This document shows, in pieces, positions 1 to 10,367 of a stretch of 10,367 nt of DNA. Position 1 is the stretch's first letter; each line of letters begins with the position of its first letter. The position numbers were made by a program, and so were the translations under genes. This DNA is from Eubacterium sp. Lineage in GTDB: Bacteria > Bacillota > Clostridia > Lachnospirales > Lachnospiraceae. The stretch lies in NCBI GenBank assembly GCA_024697885.1, contig JAILSA010000240.1, positions 1 to 10,367 on the forward strand, in the 5' to 3' direction. The notes beneath the pieces were generated by a model. The model was not told the origin of the DNA. It saw only the letters and a program-made list of their open reading frames with translations, and searched no databases.

Positions 1-1249
1 GATTATGGCGACGGGAGCTGCGGAGAATGTGGTCACCTGCCCGGGTTGGACGCTGCCGGGAGTGATTGGAGCCGGCGCAGCCCAGACTATGATGAATCTC
101 CACGGTATTCAGCCAGGTAAGAAAATACTCATGTTGGGCTCGGGAAATGTAGGCCTGGTGGTATCTTTCCAGCTCATGCAGGCGGGCTGTCAGGTGGTGG
201 CGATTGTAGATGCGGCGCCTAGGGTAGGTGGTTACGGAGTTCACGCCGCCAAGGTGGCCAGAACGGGAGTTCCATTTTACCTGTCCCACACCATCAAGGA
301 AGTGGAAGGAGAAGACCATGTCACTGGCGTCACCATCAATCAGGTCGATGAAAAATTCCAGCCGATTGAGGGCAGCGAAAAAACTTTTGAAGTAGATACG
401 GTTTGCTTGGCAGTTGGCTTGTCCCCTATGTCTCAGCTCCTTAAGATGGCGGGCTGTGAGATGGAGGACAATCCAAAGCGAGGCGGCCAGGTGCCAATCG
501 TAGACCAGTACGGAGAGTGTTCTGTTGCAGGAATTTTTGCCGTAGGAGATGTGTCCGGTATTGAGGAAGCCTCCTCGGCCATGATTGAAGGAAAAATGGC
601 TGGTGTCTGCGTGTCGGAGTATTTGGGCTACATAGATGAGGAAGAGAAAAAAGAAGAGATTGCCAAGTTTGAGAAGGATTTGGACAGTCTGCGTCAGGGC
701 ATGTTTGCTCCCAAGAATCGAGGCAAGGTGATCCAGGAGACAGAAGAGGGAATCAAGGTGTCACAGAGTCTTTTGGAAAAAGGATTTGTGGCAGATGAGG
801 AAATCGAGAGATTTCCGGGAGTGGTCCACAAGGTGGGAGTACATCCTGTCATTGAGTGTACCCAGAACATTCCCTGCAACCCCTGCCAGGATGCCTGCGT
901 AAAGGGTTGTATTTCCATCGGCAACAACATAACCTGTCTGCCATTTGTCAAGGATGAAAACAAATGTATTAACTGCGGAATGTGTGTGGCTAGCTGCTCC
1001 GGACAGGCGATTTTCCTAGTGGATGAGGATCTGGGAGATGGCACTGCTACAGTGACTCTGCCATATGAGTTCACCCCTTTGCCAGAGGTGGGAACCAAGG
1101 GTTACGGACTCAGCCGCAGCGGTGAAAAGATTTGTCCAGCAGAGGTGGTTTCGGTCAAGAGCATCAAGACATTCGACCACACCAACCTTTTGACCATGAA
1201 AGTTCCAAAGGAATTTGCCATGAAGGCAAGATTTTTCAAATGTTCCTAA
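1..1249 (+). CDS. FAD/NAD(P)-dependent oxidoreductase subunit with C-terminal ferredoxin-like cysteine cluster (5' partial)
   Basis: This is the alpha-type subunit of an opine-oxidase / hydroxyproline-dehydrogenase / HcnB-like flavin complex. The visible part opens in the middle of the protein at ATGAAEN, the turn that normally follows the first FAD-binding region, so the true start lies left of the window and the ATG at 5 is internal. A second Rossmann motif, GSGNVG, is encoded at 137-154, and the FAD-closing motif IFAVGDV is near 533-553. The C-terminal third carries an irregular cysteine group (CTQNIPC, CNPC, CQDAC, CVKGC; from 857) followed by a regular CxxCxxCxxxC group at 965-997, which suggests one or two [4Fe-4S] clusters. 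Family knowledge: such subunits move electrons between a DAO-type flavin subunit and NAD(P) or ferredoxin. The next two genes encode the expected partners and start 19 and 366 bases downstream. Substrate unknown; the class is secure, the exact reaction is not. Confidence 0.85.
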   Translation, partial: IMATGAAENVVTCPGWTLPGVIGAGAAQTMMNLHGIQPGKKILMLGSGNVGLVVSFQLMQAGCQVVAIVDAAPRVGGYGVHAAKVARTGVPFYLSHTIKEVEGEDHVTGVTINQVDEKFQPIEGSEKTFEVDTVCLAVGLSPMSQLLKMAGCEMEDNPKRGGQVPIVDQYGECSVAGIFAVGDVSGIEEASSAMIEGKMAGVCVSEYLGYIDEEEKKEEIAKFEKDLDSLRQGMFAPKNRGKVIQETEEGIKVSQSLLEKGFVADEEIERFPGVVHKVGVHPVIECTQNIPCNPCQDACVKGCISIGNNITCLPFVKDENKCINCGMCVASCSGQAIFLVDEDLGDGTATVTLPYEFTPLPEVGTKGYGLSRSGEKICPAEVVSVKSIKTFDHTNLLTMKVPKEFAMKARFFKCS

Positions 1250-1268
1250 GAGAGAGAGGAGACCGGTT

Positions 1269-1601
1269 ATGAACACTGTAGTAGATAGAGCCAAAATGTT
1301 AGGAGAATTTGTTCCACAGGCAGATGACGACATGCTTATTTGCAGGTGTGAAGAAATCACTAAGGGAGAAATCCGAAGGGCAGTTCACGATGGCATGTGG
1401 ACCCTGACGGAAATCCGAAGATATTTGAGAACGGGAATGGGCCTGTGTCAGGGGCAAACCTGTTCTAAGCTGGTCAAGGGAATTGTGGCAAGAGAGTTAG
1501 GAGTATCTCCGGCAGAGTTAGAGCCTGCCACAGCCAGATCCCCAATGAGACCAACTGAAATGAGAATCTTTGCGGCGGAAGCCCAGGAAGAAAAATGTTA
1601 G
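1269..1601 (+). CDS. BFD-like [2Fe-2S]-binding subunit of the oxidoreductase complex
   Basis: A 110-residue protein with the four-cysteine pattern of the Fer2_BFD family: C25-x-C27 (ICRCEE) and C60-x4-C65 in GMGLCQGQTC. The Cx4C form within a GMGxCQG context is typical of the opine oxidase, HCN synthase and hydroxyproline dehydrogenase group, where this domain is either fused to the alpha subunit or separate. Here it is separate. It probably holds one [2Fe-2S] cluster and passes electrons between the two flavin subunits encoded on either side. A purine-rich ribosome site (GAGAGGAGA) precedes the ATG. The preceding gene ends 19 bases upstream. The last codons overlap the region of the next gene's ribosome site, consistent with translational coupling. 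The C-terminal 35 residues, after the second cysteine pair, have no motif I recognise. Confidence 0.85.
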   Translation: MNTVVDRAKMLGEFVPQADDDMLICRCEEITKGEIRRAVHDGMWTLTEIRRYLRTGMGLCQGQTCSKLVKGIVARELGVSPAELEPATARSPMRPTEMRIFAAEAQEEKC

Positions 1602-1615
1602 CAGGAGGTGAGACA

Positions 1616-2758
1616 ATGAACATGGAAAACAAGGCAGATGTAGTTATTGTCGGCGGTGGAATTATTGGATGCGCCATTAGCTACTACCTGAGCAAGCGTG
1701 GCAAGAGCGTCATCGTGTTAGAGGGAAGCGACAACATTGGAAACGGAGGCTCCTCTAGGAATGGTGGTGGCGTGAGACAGTCAGGAAGAGATCCAAGAGA
1801 ATTGCCTCTTGCTATGTATGGGATCGAAAATCTTTGGCCTGGTCTTTCTCAGGAATTAGGTGTGGATTGCGAGTACCACAAGGAGGGAAATCTTCGACTG
1901 GGAAAAACAGAAGCCCACAGGCAAATCCTACAGGGATTGACAGACCGAGCGGTGGCCTGCGGCCTTGGGGTAAAAATGATTGATGCTGAGGAAATCAAGA
2001 AGATCAATCCCCACCTGTCAGATGAAGTGATTTGTGCCAGTTGGTGTCCAACAGACGGACATGCCAACCCTATGGTGACCACCCTGGCTTTTTACAAGAA
2101 GGCAAGAGAGATGGGAGTGCGCTTCATCACAGGAGAAAAGGTTACCAGACTGAGAAAAGTAAAAGGCCGTTTGAAGCAAGTGTATACAGAAGAAAATTTA
2201 TATGAAGGTGATTTTGTTGTTGTGGCAGCGGGCTATGAATCCAGAGAAATCCTTGGAACGATTGGTGTAGATGTACCTATGCACAGGGAACTCTGTGAGT
2301 GCCTGGTGACAGAGGCGGAGCCCCCAATGTTTAACCAGATGTTGGGAACAGCGGAGGCGGACTTCTATGGACATCAGTCAGATCATGGATCCTTTGTCTT
2401 TGGAGGGATGTCAGGTCTAGAGCTCAACAACAAGGATACGGGACCGGAGAATTCTCCGGGGAACGCCTCTATTACAGCACCATGCATATGTCGAGGAATT
2501 ATGAAGTATTTTCCTGCTCTTGAGGATGCCAAAATCGTCCGAACCTGGGCGGGATACCTGGATATCTGTCAGGACGGAGTACCTGTGCTGGGACTGGTGG
2601 ATGAGGTTCCCGGTCTGGTAGTGGCCTGTGCCTTTTCTGGACACGGTTTTGGTATTGCACCGGCAGTGGGAGAACAGATGGCCATGCTGATTGATGAAGG
2701 AAAAACAAGTGTAGACATTTCGGGCCTCAGATACGGAAGGTTTAAGGCCAAAATTTAA
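1616..2758 (+). CDS. DAO-family FAD-dependent oxidoreductase (sarcosine oxidase beta / opine oxidase B-like)
   Basis: A 380-residue flavoprotein of the D-amino acid oxidase fold, probably the substrate-oxidising subunit of the complex; relatives oxidise secondary or D-amino acids (sarcosine, glycine, proline, hydroxyproline, opines) at the C-N bond. The N-terminus has the FAD Rossmann motif VVIVGGGIIGCA, then SSRNGGGVRQSGRD near residues 45-58. The C-terminus has the family signature: TWAGYLDICQDGVPVLG, then FSGHGFGIAPAVGE, ending with a Tyr-Gly-Arg-Phe motif. The start at 1616 is preferred over the in-frame ATG at 1595, because AGGAGGTG at 1603-1610 sits correctly before 1616 and the 1595 start would overlap the upstream gene. 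No signal peptide or membrane segment is seen, so it is likely cytoplasmic. The class is sure; the substrate cannot be read from sequence alone. Confidence 0.87.
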   Translation: MNMENKADVVIVGGGIIGCAISYYLSKRGKSVIVLEGSDNIGNGGSSRNGGGVRQSGRDPRELPLAMYGIENLWPGLSQELGVDCEYHKEGNLRLGKTEAHRQILQGLTDRAVACGLGVKMIDAEEIKKINPHLSDEVICASWCPTDGHANPMVTTLAFYKKAREMGVRFITGEKVTRLRKVKGRLKQVYTEENLYEGDFVVVAAGYESREILGTIGVDVPMHRELCECLVTEAEPPMFNQMLGTAEADFYGHQSDHGSFVFGGMSGLELNNKDTGPENSPGNASITAPCICRGIMKYFPALEDAKIVRTWAGYLDICQDGVPVLGLVDEVPGLVVACAFSGHGFGIAPAVGEQMAMLIDEGKTSVDISGLRYGRFKAKI

Positions 2759-2773
2759 GAAGGAGGAATTCCC

Positions 2774-3151
2774 ATGAATGTAGCTGTAGAAGAATTATCC
2801 AAAATTGAAATAATTACAAAGGAAGCTAAGGTGGCGGAGTTGACAAAGGAGTTTGGCAAGTTCGGCATCACAGGAATGACCATCTATGACGCTGTGGGAT
2901 GTGGAGTCCAGATGGGAACAGAGGAATATGAGATAGAAAAAAATGAGGAGCCTAATCTCCTGAAGAAGCAGGTGGTGATGGTGGTTCTTCCCTCAAAGGA
3001 AGTCAATGACTTTTTGGAATTTGTGGGCAAGTCGCTATACACCGGTCACATAGGTGATGGAAAAATATTTGTGACACCAGTGACTAATGCAGTTCGAGTG
3101 AGAACAGGAGAGGAGGGAAAAGATGCTTTGGTAGAAGGTGAACTAGATTAG
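2774..3151 (+). CDS. Divergent PII-family (GlnB/GlnK-like) signalling protein
   Basis: A 125-residue PII protein that aligns without gaps to E. coli GlnB with an offset of seven residues. Conserved features are the B-loop TGHIGDGKIFV (K97, equal to GlnB K90), the C-terminal RVRTGEE (R108 and R110, equal to R101 and R103), Q46 (Q39) in GVQMG, and K65 (K58). These positions bind ATP/ADP and, for Q39 and K58, help bind 2-oxoglutarate. The T-loop is unlike GlnB: the uridylylated Tyr51 is replaced by E58, and the loop is rich in Glu (TEEYEIEKNEEP), so modification at that site is not possible. The ribosome site AAGGAGG at 2759-2765 lies 8 bases before the ATG, and the permease starts 15 bases after the stop. 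Known PII proteins bind transporters such as AmtB, so the inferred job is to control the adjacent APC permease or the flavin complex by nucleotide state. From memory, a Firmicute PII branch called PotN is linked to amine transport; membership is unproven. Confidence 0.88.
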   Translation: MNVAVEELSKIEIITKEAKVAELTKEFGKFGITGMTIYDAVGCGVQMGTEEYEIEKNEEPNLLKKQVVMVVLPSKEVNDFLEFVGKSLYTGHIGDGKIFVTPVTNAVRVRTGEEGKDALVEGELD

Positions 3152-3166
3152 GGGAGGTGACAGCAT

Positions 3167-4570
3167 ATGAATGAGAAAAAAATAGGATTGGCCAGTGTAA
3201 TCGCAACTGGCGTGGGGCTGGTGGTGGCTTCAAGTTGCCTCCTGACTCTTGGAATCGGAGCCGGAAGTTTGGGAACCCCATTCATTATTACCATGGCAAT
3301 TGCCTGCCTTGTGAATATATTTACCCTGCTGTCCATAGCGGAGTTAAATGCACTGATGCCCAACTTGACCGGAGGCCTGGCCCAGTTTTCCCTGGCCTGT
3401 GTGGGCCCCTTTGTCACCATTATCTGTATGGTGGGGGGATACCTGCTCTGTAATTCCCTGGCAGGATCTGTGGAGGGAGCTGTATTTGGAAACACCTTTG
3501 CAGAAATATTTTCCGACTATGGAATTCCGGCCTGGGTTTTCACTGTGATTCTAATCTTTTTCCTGGCCCTGACTAATTTAAATGGCGTAGATGTTTTTAT
3601 AAAAGTTCAGGACTTTGTGGCCTATGCTTTGATTTTATCCATCGTAGCCATGGGAATTATGGGAGCTCTGGGAATTGGAACTGGAGAGATGATAGAGCAG
3701 CCGGCGGCTTTGGCCACAGATTTTAAGAGCATTACAGGCCTGTGCGGTGTGGCATTTTTCCTCTTTGTAGGAGGAGAGTATGTGATTCCCCTGACCAAAA
3801 GCTGCAAAAATGCCAAAAGGGACATACCTTTGGGAATGGTGCTCAGTATGATAATCATTTTCGGAATGCAGGCATTTTTGACCTTGGGATTTAAAAATTA
3901 CACAGAGTGGGGAACACTGGCAAGTCACACCACACCACAGATGTTGTACGGACAGGTTCTTCTGGGACCTCTGGGAAAATATTGGATGTTGCTTATTACC
4001 CTCTTGGCAGCAGTGAGTTCCGTAAATACAGTTATGGGTTCGCTGGCCTATATCCTGATGGGTATGGCAAAGATTAACCTCTTGCCTCAGATTTTTCAGA
4101 AGGTAAACAAAACGGGAGCGCCCTATGTGGGAATCCTTTTGGAAACAGGAATTTTTATCGTGCTGAATATCACTGGACTTTCATCCACATCGTCAATTTC
4201 TTATATGATTTCGGTGTTGGCGGTTCTGTGGTTAATCAGTTATATCATATCAAATCTCAATGTGATTATTTTGAGAAAAAGGTTGGCAAATGCCCCGCGT
4301 ACCTTTAAGACCCCATTGGGGTATACAGTGCCGATTTTGGGAATGGTTGGATCTGCCTATATGATTTACAACATTGACCCAAGCTGGGAGGTAAAGCTCT
4401 CCCTCTATCGTGTGGTTTTGATTACCCTTGTGGCCCTTGGCATTTATTCTTTTATCTGGGTGAAAACCAAGGTGAAGAGACCACTGTTTAAGCCATATCC
4501 AATTAAGGAAGTTATGGCAATGGAAAATGACTTGTATCAGGAATATCATGCCAGAAAAAAAGCTGGATGA
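3167..4570 (+). CDS. APC-superfamily amino acid / amine permease
   Basis: A 467-residue integral membrane protein with about 12 hydrophobic segments (roughly residues 7-30, 37-57, 80-105, 121-137, 150-172, 190-210, 222-242, 268-290, 320-340, 345-370, 387-405 and 417-435), the usual size and layout for the amino acid-polyamine-organocation superfamily. The first segment has a small-residue run (GIGAGSLG) like the unwound substrate-binding TM1 of APC carriers. The KTGAPYVGILLE stretch, before the segment near 320, is also typical. The C-terminal tail of about 35 residues is hydrophilic and charged. The start is set by GGGGAGGTGA just upstream. It lies directly after the PII gene and before the OCD-family gene, so it probably imports the compound that the operon breaks down. 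Substrate (amino acid, polyamine, aromatic amine or opine-like molecule) is not determined. Confidence 0.88.
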   Translation: MNEKKIGLASVIATGVGLVVASSCLLTLGIGAGSLGTPFIITMAIACLVNIFTLLSIAELNALMPNLTGGLAQFSLACVGPFVTIICMVGGYLLCNSLAGSVEGAVFGNTFAEIFSDYGIPAWVFTVILIFFLALTNLNGVDVFIKVQDFVAYALILSIVAMGIMGALGIGTGEMIEQPAALATDFKSITGLCGVAFFLFVGGEYVIPLTKSCKNAKRDIPLGMVLSMIIIFGMQAFLTLGFKNYTEWGTLASHTTPQMLYGQVLLGPLGKYWMLLITLLAAVSSVNTVMGSLAYILMGMAKINLLPQIFQKVNKTGAPYVGILLETGIFIVLNITGLSSTSSISYMISVLAVLWLISYIISNLNVIILRKRLANAPRTFKTPLGYTVPILGMVGSAYMIYNIDPSWEVKLSLYRVVLITLVALGIYSFIWVKTKVKRPLFKPYPIKEVMAMENDLYQEYHARKKAG

Positions 4571-4623
4571 TGATAGAACCCGTTTTGAGTGACGGATCAA
4601 GAAAGATTAAGGAGGAAAAGACT

Positions 4624-5766
4624 ATGAGTGAAACAAATTTGGATATTTTGTATTTGAGCGAGCCGGATATGTTGAAGGCAGGAGTAAATGATGTGGTAGC
4701 ATGTACCGATTGTATGGAGGAACTGTTGGTAACCTTGGACAAGGGAGATTACCTAATGGGTGGAGAAAATGGAAACTCCCATGGAACAATGATTACGTTC
4801 CCGGATCACCCAGCATTTCCTAACATGCCTAAGAATGGACCTGACCGTAGATTTATGGCCATGCCGGCATATGTAGGTGGCGAGACAGACATGGCTGGTA
4901 TGAAATGGTACGGCTCCAATGTGGAAAATAGGGAAAAAGGTCTTCCAAGATCCATCCTTATGGTTATGCTCAACGACAAGGACACGGGAGCTCCCCTGTC
5001 TCTCATGTCAGCAAACCTCCTCTCCGCCTACCGTACCTCAGGAATTCCCGGTGTAGGTGTAAAAAATCTGGCGTTGAAAAATGCCAAAGTCTTAGGAATC
5101 GTGGGACCGGGAGTTATTAACATCACAGCGATTGAGACTTTTGCTGCTCTTAGACCAAGTCTTGACACCTTGAAAATCAAGGGTAGAAGTCAGGAGTCCA
5201 TTGATCGCTGTATCAATTTTGTAAAGGAAAAACTTCCGCAGTTCAAAACAATCCAGGTGGTGGACACCCTAGAGGAATGTGTGAGAGATTCTGATATTTT
5301 GAGCTTTGCAACCTCCACCAGCATGGGAATGGACCGCTCCCAGTATCCACAGGTAAAAGAGGAGTGGATTAAACCAGGCGCCCTGTTCTGCGTGCCGGGC
5401 TCCTGCGATTTTACGGACGAATATGTATGCAGCGGCAAGGCCAAACTGGTGTGTGACAATATTAAACTCTATGAAGCTTGGGCAGAGGAATATCCTTACC
5501 CAACCTATAACACAGTATACATTCCAGGATGCCTCTGGTTAGATTTGGTTCACGATGGAAAACTTTCAAAAGATAAAATTGTAAACTTAGGCGCCATTCT
5601 TTCTGGCAAGGCGGAGGGAAGAACTTCGGATGATGAGGTTATTATTTACTCCGTGGGAGGTATGCCAGTAGAGGATGTGGCCTGGGGTAAAAAGTGCTAT
5701 GAAAAAGCTCTTGATATGGGCATTGGCACAAAACTTAACCTTTGGGATCATCCATATTTGTTTTAA
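4624..5766 (+). CDS. Ornithine cyclodeaminase / mu-crystallin family protein ("tyramine oxidase subunit B"-like)
   Basis: A 380-residue NAD(P)-binding protein of the OCD/mu-crystallin family, somewhat longer than typical members (about 310-350). The substrate-side segment GMKWYGSN contains K94, matching the conserved lysine of the family, and AYRTSG contains R137, matching the conserved arginine. The nucleotide-binding turn reads VGPGVIN (160-166), a variant of the usual GxGxQ. The region where true ornithine cyclodeaminases have GDxPGKTEL reads PGSCDFTDEYV, so ornithine deamination is doubtful. Other family members are alanine dehydrogenases, ketimine reductases and opine-type synthases. Database annotation of similar proteins as tyramine oxidase subunit B is recalled, not checked. 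ATG 4624 is chosen because GGAGG at 4611-4615 precedes it; the in-frame ATG at 4567 overlaps the permease stop. It is the last gene of the operon. Confidence 0.83.
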   Translation: MSETNLDILYLSEPDMLKAGVNDVVACTDCMEELLVTLDKGDYLMGGENGNSHGTMITFPDHPAFPNMPKNGPDRRFMAMPAYVGGETDMAGMKWYGSNVENREKGLPRSILMVMLNDKDTGAPLSLMSANLLSAYRTSGIPGVGVKNLALKNAKVLGIVGPGVINITAIETFAALRPSLDTLKIKGRSQESIDRCINFVKEKLPQFKTIQVVDTLEECVRDSDILSFATSTSMGMDRSQYPQVKEEWIKPGALFCVPGSCDFTDEYVCSGKAKLVCDNIKLYEAWAEEYPYPTYNTVYIPGCLWLDLVHDGKLSKDKIVNLGAILSGKAEGRTSDDEVIIYSVGGMPVEDVAWGKKCYEKALDMGIGTKLNLWDHPYLF

Positions 5767-5799
5767 CTCAGTCGGAGTACAAGCTCCGACTGAGTTAAA
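5762..5799 (+). repeat. Perfect 16-bp inverted repeat over the stop codon
   Basis: The arms 5762-5777 and 5784-5799 are exact reverse complements around a 6-base loop (TACAAG). The TAA stop of the OCD-family gene (5764-5766) sits inside the left arm. There is no T-run after it, so it is not a standard terminator; it may protect the operon's 3' end or be part of the compound element that continues to 5946. Confidence 0.85.
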
Positions 5800-5812
5800 C
5801 GCTCCGCGAGGA

Positions 5813-5869
5813 TGCGCACGGATTCGGACAGGAATTTGTCTGCTGAAGCAGACCCGAATCCGGCGCGCA
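5813..5869 (+). repeat. Branched or bulged hairpin
   Basis: Nested inverted repeats: TGCGC 5813-5817 with GCGCA 5865-5869; CGGATTCGG 5819-5827 with CCGAATCCG 5854-5862; and GTCTGC 5838-5843 with GCAGAC 5848-5853 around a TGAA tetraloop. A 10-base bulge (5828-5837) separates the outer and inner stems on one side only. Such nested pairing suggests a structured RNA or a palindromic intergenic repeat. No known RNA family is recognised. Confidence 0.7.
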
Positions 5870-5889
5870 AGACTCGCGAGCGAGTCTTG
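5868..5889 (+). repeat. Hairpin with 9-bp stem and CGAG loop
   Basis: CAAGACTCG (5868-5876) and CGAGTCTTG (5881-5889) are exact reverse complements around the loop CGAG. It directly abuts the preceding hairpin (sharing 5868-5869), so the two may be alternatives or may stack. No T-run follows. Confidence 0.75.
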
Positions 5890-5909
5890 ACATCGATTGG
5901 GAGTGCAGG

Positions 5910-5946
5910 ACTCGTCATGCCAAAGAGGGTATGGCGAGTTTTTTTT
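5910..5946 (+). terminator. Rho-independent terminator of the oxidoreductase/PII/permease operon
   Basis: Stem 5910-5921 pairs with 5928-5939 (12 pairs, two of them G-T wobbles) around the loop AAAGAG, followed at once by eight Ts (5939-5946). It is 144 bases after the last stop codon of the operon and just before the cellulase promoter, so it separates the two transcription units. Confidence 0.92.
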
Positions 5947-6038: not shown

Positions 6039-8855
6039 ATGGAAAAAAGAAAGAGACTTGTTGCATTGTTGTTGTCCCTTGCTATGGTATTTACAAGCCT
6101 TGTAGGGATTGGCCCAGACAAGCGAGTGCTGGCAGCTAGTGAAATAAGCCTGTCAGTTGACACTTCTACCAAAACGGGACAAAACCAGGCGGATGTTCAA
6201 ATACAGTCCACGGCTTATGACACTCAGTCAGAGTTATCAGCAGCAGGTGTGACCGATTTGAATGTAAATTTAAATATTTCATCCTTTGGCCAGAACTCCG
6301 ATGGTACAGCCGGAGTGATGATTTACTTTTGGGATGGCTCTACCTGGCACAACACCTGGTATGATTTGTCTACCGGAAGCATGGCTCTTTCCTATAATAT
6401 TTCTTCCTATCTGAGTGGAAGTAATGATGTAAACTATGGAATCCAGTTTTCCAATGTTTCTAGCGTGACCTACAGTATCACTTCAGCTAGTTTGACTGTG
6501 GGGGGAAGTAGTTCTTCAAGCACCAGCACTAACTCCAAGATTGAGATCACAGACAACTTTGCGAAAGTTTTGGAAACCGCTCTTTATTTCTATGACGCCA
6601 ATATGTGTGGCTGCGATGTCTCTGAAAAATCAGGTTTGACCTGGAGAGGCAACTGTCATACCTGCGATCAGACAGCAACTTATAATGGACAGACTGTGGA
6701 TGTCAGCGGTGGCTTTCACGATGCGGGAGACCATATAAAATTTGGCCTGCCAGGTGGTTATTCTGCCACTATGTTGGGCTTGAGTTACTATGAGTATAAG
6801 GATGCCTACCTTCAGACAGGAACATCCTCACATTTGAAAAAAATTACAGATCATTTTGCAGATTATTTTAAGAGATGTATTGTAAGGGAAAATGGTAAAA
6901 TGGTAGCTTTTGCCTACCAGTGCGGTAATGGAACTGATCATAATTACTGGGGAGCGCCGGAGGACCAGTCAGAGTCTCAGCGCGGAGGAGTTTATTTTGC
7001 GGATTCTTCCAATCCAGCTACAGATCAGGTGAGCCAGGTGGCAGCCTCCCTTGCTTTGCAATATTTGAATTTCGGGGATGAGGAATGCTTAAGCGCGGCA
7101 GAGGAACTTTTTGCATTTGCCATGAATAACAGCAAATCTGTTCCGACAGGTGGAGAAACCACTGAGTTTTACAATTCTGCAGAGTGGAAGGACGATTATT
7201 GTCTTGCGGCTGCTCTTTTGTATAAGGCCACAGGAGATTCTACTTATAAGAATCAATATAGCGCCTACAGCGGAAGTCTGAATCCCTATGCATGGCTGTC
7301 CTGGGACCGTGTGGATTCCCTTGCCATTTTGTATGGAGAAAATAGTATAACAGGAATTTTGAATTGTTATAACAATATGAAAAGTGGTGGAACTATCTTA
7401 GATGGTACCTACTGCGCTCTGCTGGAGTGGGCAAGTGCAAGATACAATTGCAATATTCAGACGCTGGGCCTTCTCTGCGATAAATATGCAGGAACGACAG
7501 ACAAGACTGCCTGGGCAGAGACTCAGATGGATTATATTATGGGAAACAATTCCTACAACAATTGTTTCATTACAGGATTTAATGAAAATTCTAGCAAGTA
7601 TCCACATCACAGGGCAGCCTCTGGCTATACAGGTGGAGTACAGGCGACCAAGGAGCAGGCCCATGTTTTGATTGGAGCTCTGGTGGGGGGACCTCGTCCA
7701 GACGGATACTATCAGGACTTGGCTACAGATTACAAATGTAACGAGGTGGCAAATGACTACAATGCAGGTTTGGTATTTGCTGCAGCAGGTCTTTACCTGG
7801 CAAATAAAGATGATGGAAATCAAAAGGTTGTAGATCCAGCCAGCCTTTCTGGTGTTAAATCCACAGAGAAGTTGGATAATACTTTGACTCTGGATTATGA
7901 GGGGGATGAACCGGAGGAAAATACAGCGACGGCTACAGCAACCCCTACCGCTACACCAACGGCAACACCAACGGCAACAGTGGCGCCTACGGCGACACCA
8001 AAGGCGACAGCTACCCCAACAGTAGCACCTACTGCGACACCAACAGCCACGGCGACACCAAAGGCAACAGCTACGCCAACAGTAGCACCTACTGCGACAC
8101 CAAAGGCGACAGCTACCCCAACAGTGGCACCAACAGCCACAGTAGCACCAAAGGCAACAGTGGCGCCTACGGCGACACCAACAGCTACACCAACGGCAAA
8201 GGCAGTAGCGACACCAACTGCGACACCAACAGTAGCACCAACTGCCACACCAACGGCAAAGGCAGCAGCGACACCAACGGTAGCACCAACTGCCACACCA
8301 ACAGCAACGGCAGCGCCAACAACCACAGCTACAGCAACAGCCACAGCAACGGTAGCGCCAACTGTAACAGCAACAGTAGCGCCAACTGCTACAGCAACAT
8401 CGGCACCAACAGTAACACCAACTGCCACACCAGTAAATGGCAGTATGGCTACAAGTGTACCAGGAGACAATGAGTCTAATCTGGGAGATGCGGTAGTGCC
8501 ACCTGAAGTTACAATTTCTAATGGAACTACTCCAACTTCTGAGACAAGTGAGACAAGCAAGGTCAAGGTGACATCCATTAAAATCAAGGCGAAGAAGAAG
8601 GCTAAGGTTGGAAAGAAAATAAAATTAAAGGCCACAGCCAAGATTAATGGTAAGCGTCGCAAAATCACCCAAAAACTTTTAAAGAAGTATGGCCTCAAGA
8701 TTAAGTGGTCCGTAAGTCCAAAGAAAAAGGCCAAGGTTCTCAAAAAGAAAAAAGCCAATGCCAAATTAAAGTTGAAGAAGAAGGGCAAGATTACAGTTAA
8801 GTGCAAGATCTCTTCGAAAAAAGGCAAAAAGATAATAAAGATTCTTAAGAGATAA
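6039..8855 (+). CDS. Secreted multidomain family 9 glycoside hydrolase (endoglucanase)
   Basis: A 938-residue secreted cellulase. Layout: signal peptide 1-33 (basic KRKR, hydrophobic core, cleavage near VLAA/S); beta-rich domain about 34-155, perhaps carbohydrate-binding but not recognised; Ser/Thr linker 157-166; GH9 catalytic domain about 168-592; Thr/Pro/Ala linker 629-798; lysine-rich domain 841-938. GH9 marks are GGFHDAGDH with D228 and D231 (water activation/nucleophile pair), PHHRAASG at 522-529 (substrate-binding His/Arg), and [10 protein letters not shown] with E569 as the general acid. All catalytic residues are present, so the enzyme should cleave beta-1,4-glucan internally or processively outside the cell. 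No dockerin, LPxTG motif or SLH domain is seen; the basic tail may hold it on the anionic cell surface. It has its own promoter and no partner genes. Function class is sure; the roles of the outer domains are inferred. Confidence 0.93.
7923..8432 (+). repeat. Thr/Pro/Ala linker-coding tandem repeats within the GH9 gene
   Basis: About 170 codons that are nearly all ACN, CCN, GCN and GTN, with an occasional Lys. A 42-base unit encoding [14 protein letters not shown] occurs at 7992-8033, 8052-8093 and 8094-8135, with few base differences. A second pattern around PTATPTAKA recurs at about 8187-8290. It forms an extended, probably O-glycosylated linker. Near-identical DNA units suggest recent expansion and possible length variation between strains. 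Confidence 0.85.
8559..8852 (+). other. Polylysine-rich C-terminal domain of the GH9 enzyme
   Basis: Residues 841-938 contain 42 Lys and 3 Arg in 98 residues and no Asp or Glu. The opening VTSIKI, then [12 protein letters not shown] and later IKWSVSP, follow the strand spacing of bacterial Ig-like (Big_2) domains, with most exposed positions turned to Lys. Likely a strongly cationic module that binds anionic wall polymers, or charged plant polymers such as pectin; inference only. Confidence 0.7.
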
Positions 8856-8945: not shown

Positions 8946-9728
8946 ATGAAAACAGCATTAACAATCGCTGGAAGTGATTCTAGTGGAGGCGCCGGTATCC
9001 AAGCAGACCTTAAGACCATGACCATGCATGGAGTATATGCCATGTCCGCAATTACTGCCCTGACGGCTCAGAACACCACGGGAGTCACAGATATTATGGA
9101 AGTGACACCGGAATTTTTGACGGCACAGTTGGAAGCTATTTTTACGGATATTTATCCCGATGCAATTAAGACGGGAATGGTGGCTTCTTGCCAGCTCATA
9201 GAAACAATTGCTGATAATCTAAAAAAATATCAGGCAAAAAATATAGTAGTTGATCCCGTTATGGTAGCTACGAGTGGAGCAAGACTCATCAGTGAGGATG
9301 CTATAGAAACATTAAAAAAGGAACTTTTGCCTTTAGCCACCCTGGTAACACCAAATATACCTGAAGCTGAGGTTTTGTCAGGAATGACCATAAAAAATGA
9401 GGAAGAAATGATAGCCGCGGCAGAAAAAATCAGCGGGGAATACAAGTGTGCCGTGCTCTGTAAGGGAGGACATCAGGTAAACGATGCCAACGACTTGCTG
9501 TTCCGCCAGGGCTCTTATGTTTGGTTTAAGGGCAAGAGAATTGACAACCCAAATACCCACGGAACAGGATGTACCCTGTCAAGTGCCATTGCATCCAATC
9601 TGGCCAAGGGACAGGATTTGGACCAGGCAGTGAAAAATGCCAAGGATTATATATCGGGAGCTTTGGCTGCCATGCTGGATTTGGGGAAGGGAAGCGGCCC
9701 TATGGCTCATAATTTCCAAATACTGTAG
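8946..9728 (+). CDS. thiD: Hydroxymethylpyrimidine / phosphomethylpyrimidine kinase
   Basis: A 260-residue ribokinase-fold kinase that phosphorylates 4-amino-5-hydroxymethyl-2-methylpyrimidine (HMP) and then HMP phosphate, giving the pyrimidine half of thiamine. The N-terminus [16 protein letters not shown] is the ThiD signature, [13 protein letters not shown] follows, and the anion-hole motif [14 protein letters not shown] carries the catalytic-loop Cys209. Length is normal for ThiD. Some close relatives with the same motifs are pyridoxal kinases (PdxK/PdxY-like ThiD2 enzymes), so vitamin B6 salvage is a minor alternative. The ribosome site (AAGAAGGA, about 8932-8939) is moderate. No other thi gene is in the window and the upstream region lacks a TPP riboswitch, so it may serve salvage rather than a regulated biosynthetic operon. 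Confidence 0.92.
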
Positions 9729-10131: not shown

Positions 10132-10367
10132 ATGTGTTCGATCATGGGTTATTGCGGTACAGGCTACGACCGAGAAAAATTCCAAGCGGGATTTGATGCA
10201 ACAATCTCAAGAGGACCAGACGACAGCAGAGTAGTAGACACAGGAAAAGGACTTTTGGGATTCCACAGACTGGCAATCATGGGTTTGACCCCAGAGGGAA
10301 TGCAACCATTTGAGAGAGACGGCAGTTATGTGGTCGGCAACGGAGAGATTTATGGTTTTGGAAAACT
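10132..10367 (+). CDS. asnB: Asparagine synthase (glutamine-hydrolysing), N-terminal glutaminase domain, 3' partial
   Basis: The first 78 codons of a class II glutamine amidotransferase of the AsnB type, cut by the right edge. After removal of Met1, Cys2 (MCSIMGYCG) is the N-terminal nucleophile that releases ammonia from glutamine. RGPDDSR, GFHRLAIMGL and NGEIYGF are the standard glutamine-binding segments of the AsnB glutaminase domain. The full protein should add an ATP-dependent synthetase domain that makes asparagine from aspartate. The start is fixed by AGGAGGT at 10118-10124, seven bases before the ATG. The Asn-type T-box upstream supports asparagine synthase over other class II amidotransferases such as GlmS or PurF. 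Length and synthetase domain cannot be checked here. Confidence 0.92.
   Translation, partial: MCSIMGYCGTGYDREKFQAGFDATISRGPDDSRVVDTGKGLLGFHRLAIMGLTPEGMQPFERDGSYVVGNGEIYGFGK

Follow-up and report, generated by a model that had tools for sequence, protein, structure and literature searches.

A PII clade paired with one type of APC permease in a probable amine uptake and oxidation operon of anaerobic bacteria

We analysed a 10,367-nucleotide stretch of DNA from a Eubacterium sp. of the Lachnospiraceae (GenBank assembly GCA_024697885.1, contig JAILSA010000240.1, forward strand), here called the window, which is a whole contig (C79) of a 1.79-Mb source genome that is 79.5% complete. The window carries an operon encoding a multi-subunit flavin oxidoreductase (subunits A, B and C), a PII signal protein, an APC-family permease and a dehydrogenase of the ornithine cyclodeaminase (OCD)/mu-crystallin family. 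The operon is conserved in rumen and gut anaerobes, which probably use it to bring an amine or amino acid into the cell and oxidize it without O2. What a previous sequence-only reading observed in these genes was right and understated, and its interpretation is supported in part; more telling is that one PII clade is dedicated to a single type of permease and that both partners carry signatures of the pairing. That this tailored PII is nearly always encoded with the permease suggests a new kind of PII-controlled transporter, and from gene content and sequence we lean towards an eight-gene operon that would let anaerobes take up and oxidize an amine or amino-acid-like amine, in which PII would serve as the permease's own gate. 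PII proteins are among the most widespread bacterial sensors, and this clade with its matching permease motif makes a small testable system (about 125 residues plus a short peptide) for PII partner switching; it would also reveal how anaerobes of the gut and rumen, and acetogens, could restrict their uptake of amine nitrogen to times of need.

A Pfam and NCBIfam profile search of the window proteins matched all six families to co-directional genes, separated by 19, 14, 15, 15 and 53 bp when starts with a Shine–Dalgarno sequence were used, which bears out both the families and the 14–53-base gaps read earlier from the letters. Starts were chosen by eye from ribosome-binding sites, placing C at 1616 after GGAGG and OCD at 4624 after AAGGAGG; the mechanical open reading frame starts (C, 1595; OCD, 4567) would overlap the preceding genes. 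The features of the operon in the window are:

2..1249, + strand: subunit A, whose 5' part is cut off by the contig end; an FAD/NAD(P) pyridine-nucleotide oxidoreductase that carries a cysteine-rich iron-sulfur region at its C terminus (Pyr_redox_2, 86 bits; Fer4)
1269..1601, + strand: subunit B, BFD-like [2Fe-2S] protein (Fer2_BFD; PF04324, 50 bits; SO_alpha_A3, 43 bits)
1616..2758, + strand: subunit C, DAO-family FAD amine/amino-acid dehydrogenase (PF01266, 231 bits)
2774..3151, + strand: PII protein of the APC-linked clade (PF00543, 74 bits, cut-off 25; clade support 100/100)
2903..2968, + strand: remodelled T-loop region of PII, GVQMGTEEYEIEKNEEPNLLKK, without R47 and without Y51 (alignment column counts)
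3167..4570, + strand: APC-family permease of the PII-paired type (PF13520, 92 bits; LeuT/APC fold model, mean pLDDT 85.4)
4511..4537, + strand: permease C-terminal tail motif VMAMENDLY, a candidate PII docking site (tail motif counts; helices 446–451 and 455–466 modelled with modest confidence)
4624..5766, + strand: OCD/mu-crystallin-family dehydrogenase of the 'tyramine oxidase subunit B' family (PF02423, 229 bits; NF004848, 554 bits, cut-off 362)

Relatives of the OCD-family protein are patchily distributed. At E ≤ 1e-60, 26 of 200 family genomes have one; among 41 near relatives, 6 do, including 4 of the 24 other members of the genus. A scan of named genomes returned at least 536 OCD relatives; hosts of the best 80, which were kept, include rumen Lachnospiraceae, Pseudobutyrivibrio xylanivorans, Eubacterium oxidoreducens, E. 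aggregans, a metagenome-assembled genome (MAG) named Acetobacterium woodii, Ruminococcus, Clostridium magnum, Lacrimispora, Treponema and Olsenella, among others. Profile models served to annotate 114 fetched stretches together with the window; dropping five loci with identical OCD proteins left 109 distinct loci that were picked by OCD similarity and so are not a random sample; in 71 of them, termed interior, the cluster does not lie within 1.5 kb of a stretch end. The core of A and C stood beside OCD in 83 of the 109 loci (63 of the 71 interior ones). All six families occurred together in 47, in several orders and across Lachnospiraceae, Eubacterium, Acetobacterium, Ruminococcus, Treponema and Olsenella. 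This co-occurrence, which the sequence-only reading had proposed as a check on itself, is not due to chance. The commonest orders were Fer2_4-A-B-C-OCD-PII-APC (19 loci) and Fer2_4-A-B-C-PII-APC-OCD (16 loci); RidA was present in 37 of the 109 loci and an AraC gene in 47.

Within these loci, the presence of PII followed the transporter. Permeases were classed, with PII ignored, by their score on a model built from 38 permeases chosen for similarity to that of the window, and they fell into window-like proteins, mostly above 650 bits, and another type at about 400–480 bits. Among interior loci, PII accompanied the window-like permease in 35/35, AmtB in 6/6 and PotABCD in 2/2 (43/43 together), versus 0/10 loci with the other APC type and 0/18 with no transporter (0/28 together). 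The corresponding counts in edge loci, 17/19, 2/2, 4/4, 1/4 and 2/9, are in agreement apart from cut or broken places, such as a permease split in two frames (L084) and PII genes at the stretch end (L096 and L119). PII lay immediately upstream of the APC gene 53 times. A second sampling, this time of 392 genomes from the order, yielded 18 permease places; PII accompanied 12 of 13 window-type permeases (the window counted) and none of the 5 of the other type; removing the six places shared with the first sample (the window, L151, L152, L154, L162 and L165) left 8/8 versus 0/4. PII is thus paired with one APC type, although two permeases of that type, in L054 and L146, have no PII adjacent. Partial correlations of protein distances across 43 complete loci were high for A–C (0.69) and PII–APC (0.61), intermediate for PII–OCD (0.37) and low for PII–A (0.22) and PII–C (−0.06). 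PII and the permease therefore go together, separately from the oxidoreductase. The sequence-only reading had linked the six genes functionally and supposed that PII ties uptake or oxidation to energy or nitrogen state; co-occurrence of the six is conserved in relatives, but PII tracks the transporter rather than the oxidation enzymes, favouring uptake over oxidation as its target.

The APC permease is one of three transporter families that, together with three kinds of PII, stand beside one OCD family. AmtB with GlnK takes the place of the APC permease with its PII in 8 of the 109 loci; six of these (L097, L100, L102, L105, L106 and L109) belong to four Treponema/Spirochaetaceae and two uncultured Clostridiales. 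The source genome itself has a second OCD locus on contig C257 (L034, 4150–10772), with the order PotD-PII-PotA-PotB-PotC-OCD-MFS, a PotN-like PII whose best solved relative is PotN (7o4x), and a contig without the oxidoreductase; a c-di-GMP-I riboswitch lies on the same contig (L034 3859–3934, 55 bits). A search of the phylum with a mixed PII alignment (A2) gave no clade-specific count, as the 30 loci opened held mostly ordinary GlnK beside AmtB, and it yielded controls with intact 'YRG' T-loops.

The PII proteins themselves divide along the same lines. The window protein scores well above the curated PF00543 cut-off and is a PII signal protein. In a tree of 73 rows, built from an alignment of 122 columns in which PotN sits on a long branch, the 52 APC-linked PIIs formed one side of a branch (100/100, and 200/200 bootstrap trees) and lay outside the AmtB-linked GlnKs, the Pot-linked PIIs, PotN and reference GlnB/GlnK; L119 and L096, whose partners are unknown, and the 44-residue L069 were omitted. 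The T-loop of the APC-linked clade is remodelled: E44 is present in 52/52, Y45 in 50/52 and E46 in 44/52, while R47, the residue that enters the AmtB pore, is kept in 1/52 versus 8/8 AmtB-linked PIIs of the same set, and Y51, the uridylylation site, in 9/52. Residues of the nucleotide site are intact, with K58, K90 and R103 kept in 52/52 and R101 in 50/52; K58, R101, R103 and the GDGK loop are part of that site. At position 39, 34 of the APC-linked PIIs have Q and the other 18 have E. Separately, six of the eight Amt-linked PIIs have A in place of D in the GDGK loop.

GlnK gates the ammonium channel AmtB, and the window resembles that system in having a PII gene beside a membrane transporter and in keeping the nucleotide-site residues. 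It differs in that the transporter is an APC-fold permease and the pore-entering arginine is nearly always missing; lacking both R47 and Y51, the window PII does not belong with GlnB/GlnK proper. The PotN subfamily of Firmicutes PII proteins, reportedly described in FEBS J in 2022, likewise joins a PII to a transporter partner. Unlike PotN, the window PII groups outside 7o4x and the Pot-linked proteins, has an APC permease beside it in place of PotABCD, and carries a different T-loop.

A matching signature lies on the permease. The window protein is modelled with a LeuT/APC fold, and a [VI][LM]AM tail follows the last membrane helix in 53 of 54 window-like permeases versus 0 of 14 of the other type, the lone miss (L040, 409 residues) being cut at a contig end; in the order-level sample, the tail was found in 12/13 versus 0/5, and the miss (L157) has in-frame stops. 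The tail consensus of the PII-type permeases is V(M/L)AMEN..Y. Both classes share an unusual first helix, VGL.VATSCL, which suggests the same substrate under different control.

The best reading of these sequences is that PII gates the permease, not the enzyme. The APC permease would take up the substrate, and subunit C would oxidize a C–N bond to an imine, passing electrons through the [2Fe-2S] and [4Fe-4S] centres of Fer2_4, B and A to NAD(P)+ or ferredoxin. RidA would hydrolyse the imine with release of ammonium, and the OCD-family enzyme may carry out a second NAD(P)-linked imine or amine step on the same compound. With ADP bound, or when nitrogen is replete, PII would dock its T-loop on the permease from the cytosol and block uptake, the conserved C-terminal tail V(M/L)AMEN..Y being the likeliest site; ATP, perhaps with 2-oxoglutarate, would free it again. 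A bolder idea, on which we are evenly divided, is that PII may be an exchangeable valve: one OCD/amine-oxidation module would be served by three unrelated transporters (APC, PotABCD and AmtB), each with its own PII, and an undescribed APC-linked subfamily would close a secondary active transporter by setting its acidic T-loop (EYE) on the V(M/L)AMEN..Y tail, making this the first PII-gated APC-fold permease. Among the titles and opening lines of abstracts searched, neither the operon nor an APC-linked PII is described, and the PotN paper may mention such genes; the available portions of PMC9692440, PMC9781322, PMC11423573, PMC10850344, PMC12718150, PMC12027173 and PMC10606097 do not describe the operon.

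Several observations weigh against a dedicated PII gate in such an oxidation operon. In L054 and L146, the PII-type permease keeps its tail with no PII adjacent. The T-loop change and the tail motif may each have arisen once, and not through repeated co-evolution, and as each marks one clade, they are suggestive of PII–permease contact and no proof of it. Glutamate in place of Q39 means that 2-oxoglutarate sensing may be lost in 18 of the 52 proteins. RidA was not found in 72 of the 109 loci, cut stretches counted, so the imine-hydrolysis step is not general. L034, where PII, PotABCD and OCD occur without the oxidoreductase, makes the link between PII and the enzyme complex loose, and the PII–OCD partial correlation means that OCD could be a second PII target. 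That correlation, the persistence of OCD with PII and a transporter in loci lacking the oxidoreductase (L034 among them) and the adjoining of PII and OCD in some gene orders would suit an alternative in which PII regulates the enzymes, either the oxidoreductase complex or OCD, and stands by the permease through operon order only. We regard this alternative as unlikely: no PII occurs in the 28 interior loci with the other APC type or no transporter, PII distances hardly track those of A or C, and the AmtB- and PotABCD-linked PIIs sit on other branches of the tree.

The oxidoreductase that accompanies this pair has the parts Fer2_4, Pyr_redox, BFD and DAO. A DAO subunit with an alpha part of Fer2_4, Pyr_redox and BFD is the architecture of Oox/Nox-type opine oxidases, and the same parts recur across the opine-oxidase, HCN-synthase (HcnABC), heterotetrameric sarcosine-oxidase and PDH-type proline-dehydrogenase class; the opine-oxidase-type complex first recognized from the sequence therefore stands as an architecture. 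The window complex differs from the enzymes of that class in dividing the alpha part among three proteins, in the extra cysteine-rich iron-sulfur region of A, in its RidA and OCD partners and in its anaerobic hosts. In both sequence and fold, C best matches the L-proline dehydrogenase 1y56_B (31% identity, TM 0.88), followed by glycine, sarcosine and L-amino-acid oxidases, with the flavin opine dehydrogenase 7fgp at rank 44. Its many residues invariant in 87/87 sequences (a few duplicates counted) include R48, R54, R58, H253, R309 and H343.

Because relatives have three more genes upstream, we searched the window's own genome for them. One end of contig C82 (3,039 bp) carries a LysR gene (801–1688, minus strand), RidA (2000–2398), Fer2_4 (2420–2737) and the start of A, roughly its first 95 residues, which runs off the contig end. 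The upstream search suggested by the sequence-only reading thereby supplied a regulator (LysR) and two further genes (RidA and Fer2_4). Aligned with the E. oxidoreducens homologue, A covers residues 2–95 on C82 and 112–525 on C79, and the C82 LysR is 46% identical to the Pfam-confirmed LysR of L076. From homology, we infer that C82 adjoins C79; with its missing 5' part placed there, the operon would comprise eight genes, RidA-Fer2_4-A-B-C-PII-APC-OCD, with LysR divergent. This order is unbroken in 10 of the 109 loci, and 4 further loci have an AraC gene inside it. An Rfam search over eight sources found no family in the window or on C82, and so gives no RNA hint to the substrate.

The last gene of the operon does belong to the OCD family as first proposed (PF02423), sharing its Pfam family with SbnB and ornithine cyclodeaminase, but it is not close to the latter enzyme. 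Its best solved relative is SbnB (4m54, E 3e-31), ahead of alanine dehydrogenase (1e-24) and, far more weakly, ornithine cyclodeaminase (1u7h, 1.5e-7), so ornithine cyclodeaminase proper was rejected. Its score on the 'tyramine oxidase subunit B' model NF004848 lies far over the cut-off, this being a subfamily model that does not imply function. The Agrobacterium opine loci offered earlier as an analogy are displaced by cassettes on plasmids of aerobic Proteobacteria, in which the OCD protein is 52–55% identical in the top 22 of the 30 plasmid matches listed (438 matched). In 12 hand-picked plasmid regions, the order OCD-RidA-DAO occurred in 11, an APC permease within 9 kb in 9, and an AraC-type or other helix-turn-helix regulator nearby in 9. 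The cassettes are like the window operon in their OCD, RidA, DAO and, mostly, APC genes; they are unlike it in that no PII match was found in the 12 regions and no electron-transfer subunits are annotated. Compared with the window genome, the Acinetobacter cassette has a DAO that is 24% and a RidA that is 28% identical, and a permease that is barely alignable. A similar parts list thus recurs: in Proteobacteria its DAO is encoded by a single gene, in anaerobes it comes with a dehydrogenase of several subunits, and OCD is the well-conserved piece. One cassette, on an Aminobacter plasmid (L203), has an aldehyde dehydrogenase gene and the bhcABCD genes for glyoxylate assimilation nearby, and another, on a Sphingobium plasmid (L204), lies inside a nicotine-degradation region (ndpB and ndpC).

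For the substrate, the first of three candidates is an opine-like N-substituted or cyclic amino acid that C would split oxidatively, with the SbnB-like OCD enzyme acting on the same kind of secondary amine; this follows the opine-like substrate put forward in the sequence-only reading. We consider this possible, with substantial doubt, and none of our results singles out an opine. The solved relatives of C (1y56_B, glycine oxidase, sarcosine oxidase beta and, lower, 7fgp) use amino acids or N-substituted glycines, the closest solved relative of OCD is SbnB, which splits a secondary amine, and the related Aminobacter cassette stands beside genes for glyoxylate use. On the other side, RidA suggests a hydrolysable imine derived from a primary amine, the name of the OCD family suggests tyramine, and the first permease helix reads VGL.VATSCL where characterized APC transporters carry a GSG-type amino-acid motif.

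A biogenic amine of the tyramine kind is the second candidate, and a tentative one; the operon would then be an anaerobic counterpart of the Pseudomonas Tyn route, with its O2-dependent oxidase replaced by a dehydrogenase complex. Work by Arcos from 2010 reportedly deals with tyramine and dopamine in Pseudomonas putida U, and our guess is that tynB of that strain is this OCD protein. The high NF004848 score fits this candidate, as do the gene order of the plasmid cassettes and their nearby APC genes; an Fe-alcohol dehydrogenase gene, whose product could reduce the aldehyde, adjoins the module in 7 of the 109 loci, and ethanolamine ammonia-lyase genes lie inside one cluster (L108). Against it, the name comes from a subfamily model, C and the permease are as distant from their Acinetobacter counterparts as given above, and 102 of the 109 loci show no Fe-alcohol dehydrogenase. 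In L108, a Clostridiales MAG, the EutA-EutB-EutC genes (12099–15621) lie between the OCD/AraC genes and Fer2_4-A-B-C.

The third, that C oxidizes a D-amino acid to an imino acid which the OCD-family enzyme reduces to the L-form for ordinary catabolism, is improbable, since RidA would compete for the imine and C matches D-amino-acid dehydrogenase more weakly than the glycine and sarcosine types. In its favour, the OCD protein has alanine dehydrogenase and pyrroline-carboxylate reductases among its relatives, L102 has serine dehydratase genes after the module, and 4 of the 109 loci have a glutamate dehydrogenase gene close to the module. Neighbouring genes disagree on the substrate: besides glutamate dehydrogenase (4/109), Fe-alcohol dehydrogenase (7) and the serine dehydratase of L102, they include EutB and a GABA-type aminotransferase, in one locus each. 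Two further leads were set aside: a reading in which PotD of L051, unlike that of L034, would keep polyamine-site residues, and taurine dehydrogenase TauXY as a model, which one paper names without its family. Fer2_4, A, B, C, RidA and OCD are genes to seek when amines disappear in the gut.

Two features follow the OCD gene:

5762..5799, no strand: perfect 16-bp palindrome where the OCD gene ends, opening a repeated intergenic element (further partial copies in the genome)
5907..5942, + strand: terminator-like hairpin with a T run, a possible end of the operon (consensus match only; 9 such matches versus 6.1 expected)

A promoter search inside the operon was uninformative (10 found versus 7.5 expected). 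The palindrome belongs to an element of about 125 bp (5762–5945) with 14 more full or partial matches in the genome, one of them on C89 at 98% across 126 bp, and resembles a REP/MITE-type repeat. The next gene encodes a GH9 glycoside hydrolase (6039–8855) whose low-complexity linker of the TPTAT type is very long and whose C-terminal stretch is strongly basic; it is followed by a ThiD-type kinase gene (8946–9728) and the start of an asparagine-synthase/glutamine-amidotransferase gene (10132–10367), which is cut by the contig end.

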